Origin: a virus
Reading direction: 5' to 3' (one strand)
DNA: 24,819 nt
IMG/VR virus record: IMGVR_UViG_3300031630_000026
Location: 1 to 24,819 of that record
Each line of letters opens with the position of its first letter. Position 1 is the first letter of the stretch. Below the pieces are notes generated by a model. The model saw only the letters and a program-made list of their open reading frames with translations. It did not search any database and was not told the DNA's origin. Of this stretch, positions 8,116 through 23,166 are shown piece by piece. The position numbers and the translations under genes were made by a program.

Positions 8116-10371
8116 TTAAATAGTACAGCTATCACAATTCTCATCATCATCGAGTACATCACCTGCTCCATCATGTGTGTTAAAATAATATAAATGTTTG
8201 CCACCGTACTTATAGAAGTTTATAAGGTCACGGATCATTTCAGACATCGGCACTTTACCGTCCTCATACTGATCTGAATTGTATGAAGTATTGACTGAGA
8301 TGGCTTGATCAATGTATTTTTGTAGGACCGCACAGATCTTAAGGTATCCTTCTGGTCCATTTTGATCCCATAGTAGATCATATTTATTCTTTAAACGAGG
8401 ATAGCCTGGAACTACTTGAGCCATGATGCCATCCTTCGATTGCTTATATGATACCAAACTACGTGGTGGTTCAATACCATTCGTTGAATTTGATACCTGT
8501 GCAGACGTCTCTGCTGGCATTAACGCCATTACAGTAGAGTTACGTATTCCATGCTTGCGCAAATTGCCTCTTAGCTTTTCCCAATCCATTCTTTGATTAG
8601 GTGCCACTAACTCATCTACTTCAGTCTTATATGTATCAACCGGAAGAATTCCAGTGTGGTACTTAGTCTCGTTAGATGCAGGACAATTACCCTTTTCCTT
8701 AGCAAGGCGGTTAGATGCACTGATCAAGTAATATGACCATGCCTCTGCGTATTCATCAATTGTTTCTAATGCAGCGTCATCATACTTTAGCCCACGCTTT
8801 GCTAAAAAGTAAGCAAGGTTAATGATACCGACACCCAATGGTCTGCGACGTTTAGTTCCAGCCATTGCTGCGGGGACAGGATAATCTTGGTAGTCAAGGA
8901 GTTCGTCGAGAGATCTAACTGCCAAGTCACAATATTTTTCAAACTCTTTAGGGTCATTAATGAGTCCCCAGTTAATTGCGCTGAGGGTACAAAGGCTAAT
9001 TTCTCCATTCGTATCGTCTGCATGCTCCAAAGGTTTAGTAGGTAGTGCAATCTCTGCACATAGGTTACTCATCTTAATTGGAGCAACTTCTGGTAAGAAT
9101 GATCCGTGATCGTTTGAGTGATCTACATTCTGTAGGTATATACGACCTGTTTCTTTTCTTTCCGTAAGAAACGACGAAAAGACTTCTAGTGCTGGCAATG
9201 ACTTCTTACGTACAGAACGTGACTTTTCATATTTCTCGTATAATGCCTTGAACTTATCTTGATCATCATAGAATGCCTTATATAGATCAGGCACTTCGTC
9301 AGGTGAGAAGAAAGTAATATTACCACCAGTGAGTAGACGTTCATACATCAACTTGTTAAACTGTACACCATAATCGATATTGCGAATACGGTTCTCATCA
9401 GTACCTTTATTATTCTTTAATACAATAAGGTCTTCGAATTCCCAATGCCATACAGGATAATACACTGTAGCTGCACCACCACGAACTCCACCTTGTGAGC
9501 AACTTTTAACAGCCGCTTGAAAGTATTTTAGAAACGGAATGAGACCAGTATGTACAACAGAACCGTCTCCAATGCGAGCGCCCAGACCACGTATTCCACC
9601 AACATTGATACCAATACCCGCTTTCTTAGATATGTAGCGAACGACTGAGGTAGCCGTAGCATTGATTGAACCAAGTGAATCACCTGACTCAATGAGAACA
9701 CACGACGAGAACTGTCTCGTAGGAGTACGCACCCCAGCCATAATTGGTGTAGGTAGTGAGATATAAAATAGCGAAACTGCGTCATAGAAGTCTTTGACAT
9801 ATTTCATCCTTGTATTTGTTGGATAGTTTTGAAATAAAGTTGCAGCAATCATCATATAGAGAACTTGAGGTGTTTCAAATAACGTCTTAGTCTTTCTATC
9901 TTGCACTAGATACTTACTACGGAATTGTTCCATACCGACATATGTAAACGAGTTATCACGTTCATGCTTGATATAGTCATTCATCTTTTCGAATTCTGAT
10001 ACACTGTATGCGCCAAGTATTGATGAATCGTATACCTTACGGTCAACGTTTTTCTCAATTGTATCGAATAAGTGTGTTGGCTCAAATCCGTTATAAACTT
10101 CTTTACGAATTTTATAGTTGATTAAACGAGCCGCCACATACTGGTAATTTGGTGTATGTTCTGATATAAGTTCTGCTGATGATTTGATCAGTAGCTCATG
10201 TATTTCAGAACTAGGAATAGATTGATATAACTGAATGTTAGCTTTGATCTCAATCTCAGAAATAGATACACCTGAGATTTCTAAACATGCCCACTCAAGA
10301 ATACGATGTATTTTCTCTAACTCAAATCCTTCTTTATGCCCATTCCGTTTAGTGATAGAGATGTCATTCAT
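8116..10371 (-). CDS. nrdA: Ribonucleotide reductase class Ia, alpha subunit NrdA, 751 aa
   Basis: Catalytic subunit that reduces ribonucleoside diphosphates. An N-terminal ATP-cone (ITKRNGHKEGFELEKIHR) spans roughly residues 1-90, so allosteric activity control is likely retained. Active-site cysteines are C224 (FSSCVLIESG), the thiyl radical C438 with E440 (NLCAEIALPT) and C461 (LCTLSAINWG). The C-terminus ends CDSCTI, the swinging redox pair served by glutaredoxin. The length matches the E. coli family (761 aa). The start overlaps the o-spanin stop (ATGA), so nrd expression probably comes from promoter P6 through the spanin genes. Confidence 0.97.
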   Translation of the reverse strand: MNDISITKRNGHKEGFELEKIHRILEWACLEISGVSISEIEIKANIQLYQSIPSSEIHELLIKSSAELISEHTPNYQYVAARLINYKIRKEVYNGFEPTHLFDTIEKNVDRKVYDSSILGAYSVSEFEKMNDYIKHERDNSFTYVGMEQFRSKYLVQDRKTKTLFETPQVLYMMIAATLFQNYPTNTRMKYVKDFYDAVSLFYISLPTPIMAGVRTPTRQFSSCVLIESGDSLGSINATATSVVRYISKKAGIGINVGGIRGLGARIGDGSVVHTGLIPFLKYFQAAVKSCSQGGVRGGAATVYYPVWHWEFEDLIVLKNNKGTDENRIRNIDYGVQFNKLMYERLLTGGNITFFSPDEVPDLYKAFYDDQDKFKALYEKYEKSRSVRKKSLPALEVFSSFLTERKETGRIYLQNVDHSNDHGSFLPEVAPIKMSNLCAEIALPTKPLEHADDTNGEISLCTLSAINWGLINDPKEFEKYCDLAVRSLDELLDYQDYPVPAAMAGTKRRRPLGVGIINLAYFLAKRGLKYDDAALETIDEYAEAWSYYLISASNRLAKEKGNCPASNETKYHTGILPVDTYKTEVDELVAPNQRMDWEKLRGNLRKHGIRNSTVMALMPAETSAQVSNSTNGIEPPRSLVSYKQSKDGIMAQVVPGYPRLKNKYDLLWDQNGPEGYLKICAVLQKYIDQAISVNTSYNSDQYEDGKVPMSEMIRDLINFYKYGGKHLYYFNTHDGAGDVLDDDENCDSCTI

Positions 10372-10724
10372 TTCTTTTCCTCAAAGTATGTCTTGTATGC
10401 TATAATAATGTTTTTTTGGTCCTTTATATATCTCTTTAGTTCTGCGAAGTTTAAGGACATTGCTTCATATCCCTTATCCGTAATTGCAAAATATACACGC
10501 TGGTCGGCTTCTAACTTATCAAATTCAGCATCAGTAGTATCTGGTGTGAGTATGATAATATCCATATCAATCCATTCGATTGCTACTGGATTAGGGAATG
10601 ATATGGTCGGATCATTGACTTCTAATATAGGGCAATCAACTGCAATAACAGGCGGAGGCTGCGAAAATGATGAGCATCCTGATAGTCCAACCAGTATGCT
10701 ACATAAAATAATAGGTTTATTCAT
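10368..10724 (-). CDS. Candidate o-spanin lipoprotein (Rz1-like), 118 aa
   Basis: Signal sequence MNKPIILCSILVGLSGC with a lipobox (LSGC, lipidated Cys17) followed by SSFSQPPP. This marks a small outer-membrane lipoprotein with a Pro-rich start, as in outer-membrane spanins. The mature part contains FDKLEADQRVYFAITDKGYE and a C-terminal helical region. The gene overlaps the end of the inner-membrane spanin candidate by 8 nt, the arrangement expected for a two-component spanin that fuses inner and outer membranes at lysis. Sequence alone does not prove the role; another lipoprotein function is possible. Confidence 0.75.
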   Translation of the reverse strand: MNKPIILCSILVGLSGCSSFSQPPPVIAVDCPILEVNDPTISFPNPVAIEWIDMDIIILTPDTTDAEFDKLEADQRVYFAITDKGYEAMSLNFAELKRYIKDQKNIIIAYKTYFEEKK

Positions 10725-11154
10725 TGGTTTCTTCTATGGCTGTTAGATTCTCAACCTGATCACCTAATGCCGCAGTCGCTTTATTGACAATCTTAGATAT
10801 TAGCGATGGCTTTTTAGCAGCTAATACACCGATATCACGATCGTTGCCTGATGATGAAGTATTGAATTTTGATTTAAGGTTAGCTACTTCTTTGGCTGAT
10901 GCCCGAGCTTCAATAATAAGGTTATTTTGAACTTCTTGCAGCAGCGCAATATTGCCATTGAGGTTTACAATGGCTTCACTTTGCTTACTTATAAACTGCT
11001 TTTGAACTTCGATTGCAGCACCTGATTGTGCTACAGTTGTTTGCAAACTATTGATTTTAGCTTGCGAGCTGGTATAGTACCAGTATCCACCTGCTGCTAC
11101 GGACATTAACCCTCCGAGGGCCAGCATTCGTATTCCTGATGTTATTCCTATCAT
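10717..11154 (-). CDS. Candidate i-spanin (Rz-like), 145 aa
   Basis: An N-terminal membrane segment (MLALGGLMSVAAGGYWYY, about residues 10-27) is followed by a long coiled-coil periplasmic part (roughly 32-110: INSLQTTVAQ, EVQKQFISKQSEAIVNL). It ends with a motif common in phage spanins, RDIGVLAAKKPSLISKIVNK followed by AT. Topology, length and the downstream overlapping lipoprotein gene fit an inner-membrane spanin. The ATG has GTAGGAAC as ribosome-binding site and promoter P6 is directly upstream. An annotation as a generic coiled-coil membrane protein would be the fallback. Confidence 0.78.
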   Translation of the reverse strand: MIGITSGIRMLALGGLMSVAAGGYWYYTSSQAKINSLQTTVAQSGAAIEVQKQFISKQSEAIVNLNGNIALLQEVQNNLIIEARASAKEVANLKSKFNTSSSGNDRDIGVLAAKKPSLISKIVNKATAALGDQVENLTAIEETNE

Positions 11155-17876: not shown

Positions 17877-18353
17877 TTACTTATAGAATATGTGATCATC
17901 TATAGTAGCAATATAATCTAGGCTAGCATTCCAATACGGATTTACCTTAGTAGTATGATAATGTGTTGCACCATCTACAAAATCATGTCCAGCTCGATAC
18001 CATAGGATAGCATCAATAGCATGACGGCGGGCATCTATAAAGGCGCCAACATCACGTATTTGGTCAGACAAACCGTCACAGTACCAAGAAAATTGGCATT
18101 GATGACGAACAACAACTTCACCCCACATCTTTGCCTGCTTAACAACGCCGCATATATCGTTGGGCCAGCGTGGATGCATTACTCTATTCAATGTTACTAA
18201 AGCAACTGCAATCTTACCTAACTTACCCTGATTGCGTGATTCAAAATAGATATTCTCTGCAAGACATTGAATATCCGCTTCTTCGTAATTGTGGTCATTT
18301 GCATAGGTTGCAGATGAAAGTATTAGTGCTAGTACTACTATTAATTTATTCAT
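17877..18353 (-). CDS. Secreted SleB-type cell-wall hydrolase (endolysin candidate), 158 aa
   Basis: A cleavable signal peptide (MNKLIVVLALILSSATYA, then NDHN) is followed by a SleB/cell-wall hydrolase 2 domain. CLAENIYFESRNQGKLGKIA holds the catalytic Glu region (E38) and ends ALVTLNRV. CQFSWYCDG and ATHYHTTKVNPYW are the other conserved blocks of this lytic transglycosylase-like family. With a Sec signal, the enzyme should reach the periplasm without a large-hole holin. The gene overlaps the metallopeptidase by 8 nt and has no strong ribosome-binding site, so translation is probably coupled. It is the best endolysin candidate in the window. A host-spore role is excluded by context. Confidence 0.9.
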   Translation of the reverse strand: MNKLIVVLALILSSATYANDHNYEEADIQCLAENIYFESRNQGKLGKIAVALVTLNRVMHPRWPNDICGVVKQAKMWGEVVVRHQCQFSWYCDGLSDQIRDVGAFIDARRHAIDAILWYRAGHDFVDGATHYHTTKVNPYWNASLDYIATIDDHIFYK

Positions 18354-18687
18354 GTGTGTTTACTAAGGCCTCTAAGTAAAGTGATTCTTCGATAAAATAA
18401 GCTACTTGCTCGTCAAGTTCAAAACCTTCTTTGAATTGGCATGCATGGATTAGCTCGTGTGCAATAGTAATTAACTGCTCAGTTCTATTAATGTTTTCAC
18501 TAATAACAATGTCAATATTACTTTGCTTATTTGTTGGGTCAATATAACAATAACCATTATCTGCTATATCATCATCAAACATTATTTCAATATCCAAGTC
18601 TTCAATACATAACAACCTAACCACTTCTTGAGCGAACTCTGAAGTGTGATACAAGAAAATACTGTCTTTCATATAAACGTGAAGCAT
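18346..18687 (-). CDS. Small HExxH metallopeptidase-like protein, 113 aa
   Basis: IAHELIHACQF is a zinc-metallopeptidase HExxH helix, followed about 10 residues later by a second acidic helix (LDEQVAYFIEE) that could give the third ligand. The size and motif suit small gluzincin-like phage peptidases. The N-terminal part (MLHVYMKDSIFLYHTSEF) forms the expected short beta sheet. There is no signal peptide, so it should act in the cytoplasm. The ribosome-binding site AAGGGG is 6 nt before the ATG and lies in the 3' arm of a hairpin (18693-18733). Substrate unknown. It shares its transcript with the downstream cell-wall hydrolase. Confidence 0.8.
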   Translation of the reverse strand: MLHVYMKDSIFLYHTSEFAQEVVRLLCIEDLDIEIMFDDDIADNGYCYIDPTNKQSNIDIVISENINRTEQLITIAHELIHACQFKEGFELDEQVAYFIEESLYLEALVNTHE

Positions 18688-18692
18688 AAAAA

Positions 18693-18733
18693 ACCCCTTA
18701 ATGTTATACTGTTATTATATCACAGAAAGGGGT
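18693..18733 (-). promoter_or_regulatory. Hairpin hiding the ribosome-binding site on read-through mRNA
   Basis: On the minus strand ACCCCTT (18733-18727) pairs with AAGGGGT (18699-18693), and CTGT/ACAG can pair inside. The 3' arm is the ribosome-binding site of the metallopeptidase gene and is followed by a T run, so the structure could also act as a terminator. Promoter P7 fires from within the loop and its transcript lacks the 5' arm. Confidence 0.65.
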
Positions 18734-18743
18734 GTGTTGTACA
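18714..18743 (-). promoter_or_regulatory. Early-type phage promoter P7
   Basis: TGTACA (18743-18738), 18 bp, TATAAT (18719-18714) on the minus strand, preceded by AAAATAGTTG. The spacer is one base longer than in the other copies. The expected start near 18707 gives a 20-nt leader to the metallopeptidase gene. Confidence 0.8.
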
Positions 18744-18756
18744 CAACTATTTTAAC

Positions 18757-19221
18757 TTATTTTAAAAATGTGTCATTTCTTCGATGGGAATTCCAAGCAA
18801 AGCGACCAAAGACGCGTAGTATGTAATAGGCAATATTATTTATTACCTTAAATCCGTTAATCTCAATGGCTAAATCTCTAAAGAGTTCATCACACTTCTT
18901 TTGATCAAGCATTTCAGCATCACGACCATCGGCTCGTTTAACACTTCGTGTCTTATAGACCCAATCGTGTACAAGTCCTGGCATTAATAATACACCAGTT
19001 GGAGATAAGTATTTCCAAAAGAACTTTGGAATAGACGCGCCATCAAAAGTGAATCCAGCTGGAATAACACATTTGACACCATGAAGCTCATAGTTCCAAT
19101 CTTCGGCGATAGTCCATTGACGTGTAGCCAATAGCCACAATAGTATTGCTCCAATAAAACCTTTGTCCTTTGTTAGAATAGGCACAGGTCTCATTGACGG
19201 CATTTCTTTAAATTTAATCAT
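18757..19221 (-). CDS. DUF1353 family protein, 154 aa
   Basis: Matches the DUF1353 phage family: IPAGFTFDGASIPKFFWKYL, then GVLLMPGLVHDWVY and a Lys/Arg/Asp segment (RADGRDAEMLDQKKCDELF). The C-terminus is helical with aromatic residues (IAYYILRVFGRFAW). Members are small phage proteins of unknown function. A hydrophobic stretch near the N-terminus (FIGAILLWLLA) may be buried or membrane-bound. It overlaps the thyX stop by 8 nt and so belongs to the replication/nucleotide transcript. Confidence 0.88.
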   Translation of the reverse strand: MIKFKEMPSMRPVPILTKDKGFIGAILLWLLATRQWTIAEDWNYELHGVKCVIPAGFTFDGASIPKFFWKYLSPTGVLLMPGLVHDWVYKTRSVKRADGRDAEMLDQKKCDELFRDLAIEINGFKVINNIAYYILRVFGRFAWNSHRRNDTFLK

Positions 19222-19903
19222 GCGTGTATTTCTCTATGTTAGGAAAGATGGACTGCAATACTTTAGAGCAAGCTCTAGCAATTTGCATGTGTTCTTTCTG
19301 TGTTCCATTGGATGAACGTAGATCAACATAATGAACCCACGATCGGATAGTACCATTGACATAAACACGCGAGATAGTATTACCCTCAGGCAAAACAACC
19401 CTTGCACATTCTTTCGCAATGCCTTTCGACACTGCCCAACGATATGATTCTTCTGCCAGATCAATTACTGATTTCTGACGACGTCCCCACTCAATCATAG
19501 TATCAAGATGCTCAGGACCACACTCAATTGAATTCTGTCGATTGACCGGATCTTGCAAACGTGCTTCACGCAATACGAACTCTAGATCTTTAGTAGGATC
19601 TGCGTATCGTTGTGAATACTCTTGAAACGAAAACGAACGATGCCTAAGAAATTGACGTGCAATATCTCGGGTCGTTTCAATACCAATACATGCAGAGACC
19701 ATCTCAAGTGGACTCCAATGCTGATGCTTAACCAGGTAATTAATCAGCTTTTGACCAGATGAATAATCATCTTGGTTGTCTGGAGCTGATACTCTTGCAC
19801 AAAACGAAATCAAATTAGTTAAAATTTCGTTATCCGATTCTGTGTTAAGAGTTATTGTACTGCCTGCTGGTGGTTGAGAATACGATATTAAACTAGCTGT
19901 CAT
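19214..19903 (-). CDS. thyX: FAD-dependent thymidylate synthase ThyX, 229 aa
   Basis: Makes dTMP from dUMP using FAD, methylene-THF and NADPH. The ThyX signature RHRxxSxxxxSxR is complete at residues 87-99 (RHRSFSFQEYSQR). HQHWSPLEM (61-69), ECARVVLPEGNTISRVYVNG and RSWVHYVDLRSS are the other conserved blocks. Its length is usual for the family. The phage thus uses the ThyX route rather than T4's ThyA-type enzyme. The start overlaps the 50-aa gene by 11 nt. If the DNA carries modified thymidine, ThyX would be one of several supply enzymes; that is inference. Confidence 0.97.
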   Translation of the reverse strand: MTASLISYSQPPAGSTITLNTESDNEILTNLISFCARVSAPDNQDDYSSGQKLINYLVKHQHWSPLEMVSACIGIETTRDIARQFLRHRSFSFQEYSQRYADPTKDLEFVLREARLQDPVNRQNSIECGPEHLDTMIEWGRRQKSVIDLAEESYRWAVSKGIAKECARVVLPEGNTISRVYVNGTIRSWVHYVDLRSSNGTQKEHMQIARACSKVLQSIFPNIEKYTHD

Positions 19904-23137: not shown

Positions 23138-23166
23138 ATTATACACTGTTTGGGCAGTAATGTACA
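23138..23166 (-). promoter_or_regulatory. Early-type phage promoter P8
   Basis: TGTACA (23166-23161), 17 bp, TATAAT (23143-23138) on the minus strand. The upstream flank (AATATGTATGTACA) diverges most from the consensus. It drives uvsX and the genes below. Confidence 0.8.

Follow-up and report, generated by a model that had tools for sequence, protein, structure and literature searches.

The window analysed here is the whole 24,819-nt stretch of IMG/VR record IMGVR_UViG_3300031630_000026, and covers part of the genome of a T4-like marine phage, with homologues of UvsX, DnaB, ThyX and NrdA/B. Its DNA matches Kyanoviridae such as Melnitz and HTVC008M, and nearly all of its genes lie on the minus strand. 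On this strand, thyX (19214-19903; Pfam Thy1) and a DUF1353 gene (18757-19221; Pfam PF07087) precede an operon in the same direction. The first gene of the operon (18346-18687) encodes a metallopeptidase-like protein of 113 aa (DUF6782/M78-like; Pfam DUF6782, 8e-7; metallo-protease in PHROGs), and the next (17877-18353) a SleB-like Hydrolase_2 protein of 158 aa with a signal-peptide-like N-terminus (Pfam PF07486, 1.6e-22). The two reading frames overlap by 8 nt, which suggests that the hydrolase is controlled together with the metallopeptidase; given this overlap and the poor spacing of its own Shine-Dalgarno sequence (SD), the hydrolase is probably translationally coupled to its neighbour. 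The DUF1353 protein is labelled 'tail assembly chaperone' in PHROGs and in some records, yet its gene adjoins thyX, and this name may be wrong.

The DUF1353 stop (18757) and the metallopeptidase-like ATG (18687) are separated by 69 bases, and this minus-strand gap reads TTGTGTACA-ACAC-ACCCCTT-TCTG-TGATATAAT-AACAGTATAACATT-AAGGGGT-TTTTT-ATG. It contains a promoter, P7, of the form TGTACA/18/TATAAT with an extended -10 (10 of 12 matches in the promoter scan). An A-tract and the -35 region, AATAGTTGTGTACA, occupy 18738-18751, with TGTACA at 18743-18738. The spacer carries ACCCCTT (18727-18733), an anti-SD arm that pairs with AAGGGGT (18693-18699), whose AAGGGG (18699-18694) is the SD of the metallopeptidase-hydrolase operon. 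The loop of the resulting hairpin is 27 nt long and holds the extended -10 TGATATAAT (18714-18722), with its -10 box at 18719-18714. Six T residues (18688-18693) lead from the SD to the ATG and form a candidate terminator U-tract behind the GC stem, as the initial annotation had suggested. Transcription is predicted to start near 18707, about 7 nt past the -10 box, a position set by spacing only, and the P7 transcript would thus lack the 5' arm of the hairpin. The pairing had been proposed in the initial annotation with exactly this sequence and these coordinates, and direct reading also bears out the promoter placed inside the hairpin. The SD and promoter calls assume the anti-SD sequence and sigma-70 specificity of the host.

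P7 is not isolated in the window. At 8 places, all upstream of gene starts, the -35 region is AAATAGTTGTGTACA or nearly so, with TATAAT 17-18 bases further on; their minus-strand -10 boxes are at 23143, 18719, 11194, 6171, 3702, 1610, 990 and 631. The 13-mer AATAGTTGTGTAC occurs in six exact copies, all on the minus strand, each with TATAAT 17-18 nt later, and no copy was found on the plus strand of the window. Membership of this eight-copy family makes it very probable that P7 is a genuine promoter of host type, in line with the early type first assigned to it. The SD-hiding arm is present at one of the eight promoters, that with the -10 box at 18719. The exact T4 late motif TATAAATA occurs five times, always on the minus strand and at gene boundaries (20080, 17869, 15189, 4941 and 3747), in a window of which about 6% is intergenic; none was found on the plus strand of the window, and these five motifs are likely late promoters. 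One of them (20080-20073), with the same sequence in a diverged relative, lies upstream of the operon of a small ORF, thyX and DUF1353 and is the likely source of late read-through into the hairpin. Elsewhere on the minus strand, AAAGAGGATTCCAATACAGGACTCCTCTTTTTT (in 1594-1914) looks like an ordinary intrinsic terminator.

The initial annotation described the hairpin as guarding a candidate lysis gene. This description is weak: the operon opens with a gene for a small metallopeptidase. The Hydrolase_2 protein has lysis-named relatives; against a role in lysis, a SleB-type gene lies next to a separate VanY endolysin in a T5-like phage. A spanin pair (Rz-like, PHROGs 812 and 739; 10368-11154, minus strand) lies directly downstream of an early-type promoter, and since the same promoter family drives this pair, lysis genes under a P7-type promoter are at least possible.

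The energy computed for the isolated hairpin is -13.6 kcal/mol, close to the -12.3 kcal/mol given by the same computation for the T4 gene e hairpin and to the -13.5 kcal/mol of another hairpin of the window that resembles a terminator. The fold of a 101-nt segment includes the stem, with an ordinary energy (z = -0.90; 40 of 200 shuffles fold at least as well). In the read-through RNA, exposing the SD takes 7.8 kcal/mol, versus 2.9 kcal/mol in an RNA starting near 18707, as expected of the SD-hiding hairpin first proposed; the corresponding values in the diverged relative are 7.7 kcal/mol for read-through RNA and 0.8 kcal/mol for RNA from its own promoter. The stem is only 7 bp long. In shuffled sequences about 2% of starts have their SD covered by a stem of 7 bp or more, so that the stem alone proves nothing. 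When promoter and leader were kept and the spacer sequence was randomised, 0.2% of trials yielded a stem at least this long with 4 GC pairs.

Relatives of the locus in IMG/VR comprised two near-identical contigs and one diverged relative (L093/L199), whose DUF1353 protein is 86% identical to that of the window. This relative keeps ACCCCT/AGGGGT, the T-run (seven residues), the ATG and an identical extended -10, while the -35 flank, the spacer and the inner loop differ. Six pairs of the stem are retained; the inner seventh is broken, with C facing T, and two A-T pairs have been added on the outside. Complementary changes in relatives had been named as a check in the initial annotation: at this locus they come down to this single diverged relative, and covariation was found for the same layout elsewhere (see below). 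In L103, L114, L117, L141 and L145 the layout precedes a 126-aa gene of a related operon, which is followed by the metallopeptidase homologue in L114, L117, L141 and L145. In distant relatives the metallopeptidase gene directly follows its neighbour, and the element lies one gene further upstream. No metallopeptidase relative was found in INPHARED, and no promoter/SD-hairpin element was seen directly upstream of the hydrolase in the leaders of hydrolase relatives.

The layout was then looked for in other phages. The pattern ACCCCT..TATAAT..AGGGGTTTT retrieved 58 contigs from IMG/VR versus 11 for a control with the -10 scrambled to TAATAT, 4 of the 11 being the same elements, and an AGGAG version gave at least 120 matches. 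Clusters based on shared words merged unrelated elements and were replaced by clusters based on the downstream protein. Among the matches listed, the two TATAAT sets fell into 34 such groups, and in 25 of them a start codon lies 12 bases or less from the T-run; in these matches, about 25 unrelated phage gene families have the layout in front of them. Where the pattern fixes no base, the inner positions of the matches listed pair to a mean depth of 3.4, versus 0.73 when partners are permuted (p < 5e-5). The layout covaries within one family, 13 distinct exonuclease leaders in which 96% of pairs hold and 28 double changes are seen versus 10.8 in shuffles (0/500), a number that also far exceeds the slid controls. 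Across phages the sequence of the arms varies freely with matching changes, their spacing ranges from about 12 to 31 nt, and the 3' arm is always the SD plus start codon.

We also scanned loci obtained without the pattern, through protein similarity or as reference phages. There were 20 SD hairpins of at least 9 bp, where shuffles gave 6.2, and 15 of them enclose a -10 in the loop, where shuffles gave 0.4. The 15 include a few overlapping or opposite-strand readings of one element and one element inside an RB49 gene. Providencia phage PR1 was fetched after an earlier pattern match and is not independent. At a threshold of 7 bp there was little enrichment overall (54 versus 48 hairpins; 16 versus 9 with a -10), so that 7-bp stems alone are not evidence and the excess is clear from 9 bp on. 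A T-run follows the SD in 8 of the 15 elements, versus 2.5% of 2927 starts with an SD followed by TTTT. PR1 is an isolate, and its depositors annotated the hairpin as 'terminator'. In Alishewanella phage Slicko01 (L373), a covarying hairpin (GCTAGTA/TACTAGC or GCCAGTA/TACTGGC) recurs in repeated gaps (242-313, 794-864, 1417-1488, 2456-2562 and 2893-2966); its 3' arm overlaps a possible -10 (TATACT), with TTGACT upstream in most gaps, and these gaps are possibly another kind of promoter/terminator overlap.

A scan of T4 detected SD-covering hairpins at 11 of 212 genes (1.45 in shuffles) and a promoter-like motif in the loop of such a hairpin at 8 of 212 (0.45 in shuffles). It recovered the known cases e, 49 and I-TevII. 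At regB, denV, alc, alt.-3, 30.8 and motB.2 (where the motif falls under the cut-off), the early-promoter -35 GTTTAC stands directly before the 5' arm, which, as at P7, belongs to the promoter spacer, the SD being part of the 3' arm. The early-promoter version of the gene e logic ascribed to this phage is therefore not peculiar to it, its layout being shared with these T4 genes and with many other phages. The early-gene hairpins were found computationally, and no T-run follows the SD-hiding stems of regB, denV, alc, 30.8, alt.-3, motB.2 and e, whereas the P7 locus has six T. Compensatory changes maintain the regB stem in Mosigvirus and, to a lesser degree, in Gelderlandvirus, and the regB promoter is annotated in phage Lutter. 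In T4 (L379), alc and alt.-3 share a near-identical leader cassette, an early promoter in an SD-hiding hairpin, as if copied. The passages of PMC3014915 on these genes assign a typical early promoter to regB, beside which no hairpin is mentioned, and list e, soc, 49 and I-TevI as having inhibitory leader structures. Earlier T4 promoter papers may already have noted hairpins at early genes.

The closest described switches are those of T4 e, soc, 49 and I-TevI, and of Aeh1 mobE, in which, as reviewed in PMC3014915 and PMC2988022, a late promoter lies inside an SD-hiding hairpin. As at P7, the SD is the 3' arm, read-through hides it, and RNA from the internal promoter lacks the 5' arm. These switches differ from P7 in their promoter, the late motif TATAAATA instead of a sigma-70-like TGTACA/TATAAT, and in having no U-run after the stem. 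Read-through RNA of T4 e is translated about 100-fold more poorly. Hairpins of the gene e type, with a TATAAATA-like motif inside an SD-covering stem, also precede marine phage genes in L031 (minus 5250), L060 (plus 7878) and L160 (plus 7350).

A second precedent is provided by the PeSLs of RB49-type phages, reportedly described by Arbiol (2010) and Comeau (2014). They are presented in citing papers (PMC4503421, PMC3950731) as composite early-promoter/stem-loop terminators. Like the P7 element, they are intergenic and combine a host-type early promoter with a -10 in a terminator-like stem-loop. In contrast, in the RB49 gaps examined by sequence the stem leaves out the SD, which follows downstream, and at P7 the SD is the 3' arm itself; PeSLs are moreover repeated, near-identical cassettes that mediate gene shuffling, whereas one of eight promoter copies in the window has a stem and there is no repeat cassette. 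On its sequence, the P7 element joins a trait of gene e, the SD inside the hairpin, with a trait of RB49, the host-type -10 in the stem-loop.

Several explanations of the hairpin can be weighed against this evidence. Its main role might be to end the thyX/DUF1353 transcript as an intrinsic terminator, the overlap with the following promoter being a saving of space and the SD pairing a by-product of a purine-rich arm. A GC stem followed by T6, or T7 in the diverged relative, has the appearance of a terminator, as do the T-runs enriched in the wider class and the hairpin so labelled in PR1, and RB49 hairpins likewise enclose a -10. Yet a 27-nt loop is long for a terminator, regB, denV, alc, 30.8, alt.-3 and e of T4 hide their SD with no T-run, and RB49 stems need not hold the SD, so that its overlap with the stem is a separate choice. 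We consider this explanation unlikely. Termination may instead be partial and act together with occlusion of the SD in the RNA that escapes it: the anatomy is the same, both effects have the same sign, and the T-run is enriched after the SD in the class. The chances that both operate at this locus are about even, and such combined action would be a subset of the best explanation rather than an alternative to it.

Chance complementarity between a C-rich spacer and the SD deserves attention with a stem of 7 bp, a length that is not rare in shuffled sequences. This becomes very improbable in view of the 0.2% obtained with promoter and leader fixed, the pairing kept in L093/L199 and the wide recurrence of the layout with covariation. 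The inverted repeat also overlaps the promoter spacer and start region, where a DNA operator for a repressor of P7 might be sought. Arms that vary freely with matching changes over a variable spacing are unlike the operator of one protein, and the 3' arm is invariably SD plus start codon; a DNA operator is thus disfavoured, to the point of being hardly credible.

A self-insulating promoter is the reading that we favour as likely: read-through RNA would be untranslatable and probably terminated in part, and P7 mRNA would be translated. Polymerase arriving from thyX/DUF1353 would transcribe the 5' arm, which would pair with the SD of the metallopeptidase-hydrolase operon and prevent ribosome loading, and some of this read-through would probably be terminated because six U follow the stem. 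Polymerase starting at P7 would begin inside the loop, leaving the SD free, so that translation would proceed from P7 transcripts only. The translation block of read-through RNA is the best-supported function, because a hidden SD is common to elements with and without a T-run; the subset with a T-run, which includes the P7 locus, probably adds termination.

The likeness to T4 gene e drawn in the initial annotation holds for the SD-hiding hairpin with its internal promoter and probably not for the timing. In T4 e, early read-through hides the SD and the late promoter frees it. Because P7 is early-type and a conserved late-type TATAAATA lies upstream, late read-through would be silenced here, and the timing is probably the opposite, with a productive early-type promoter, as would be the case for T4 regB. 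The operon would then be confined to the active period of P7, or simply uncoupled from its neighbour. Since the upstream promoters and P7 are partly of the same family, the two transcripts may also coexist, and the gain may be modest.

Whether many phages, T4 included, share one general device, unnamed so far, in which the spacer of a host-type promoter carries the antisense of its own gene's SD and makes the gene deaf to read-through, is a tentative proposal that we hold with slightly less than even confidence. If it is true, regB, denV and alc would be among the T4 early genes confined to the early period, and a U-run in the marine phages would add termination, packing promoter, terminator and ribosome-binding site into about 60 bases. 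Transcript levels would mislead on the protein levels of such genes, and a very short insulated promoter/ribosome-binding part would be on offer. T4 itself, with several early genes of this layout, would provide a ready test. Gene e would then illustrate a broader principle of compact genomes: transcription may pass through a gene, yet translatable RNA comes only from the gene's own promoter.
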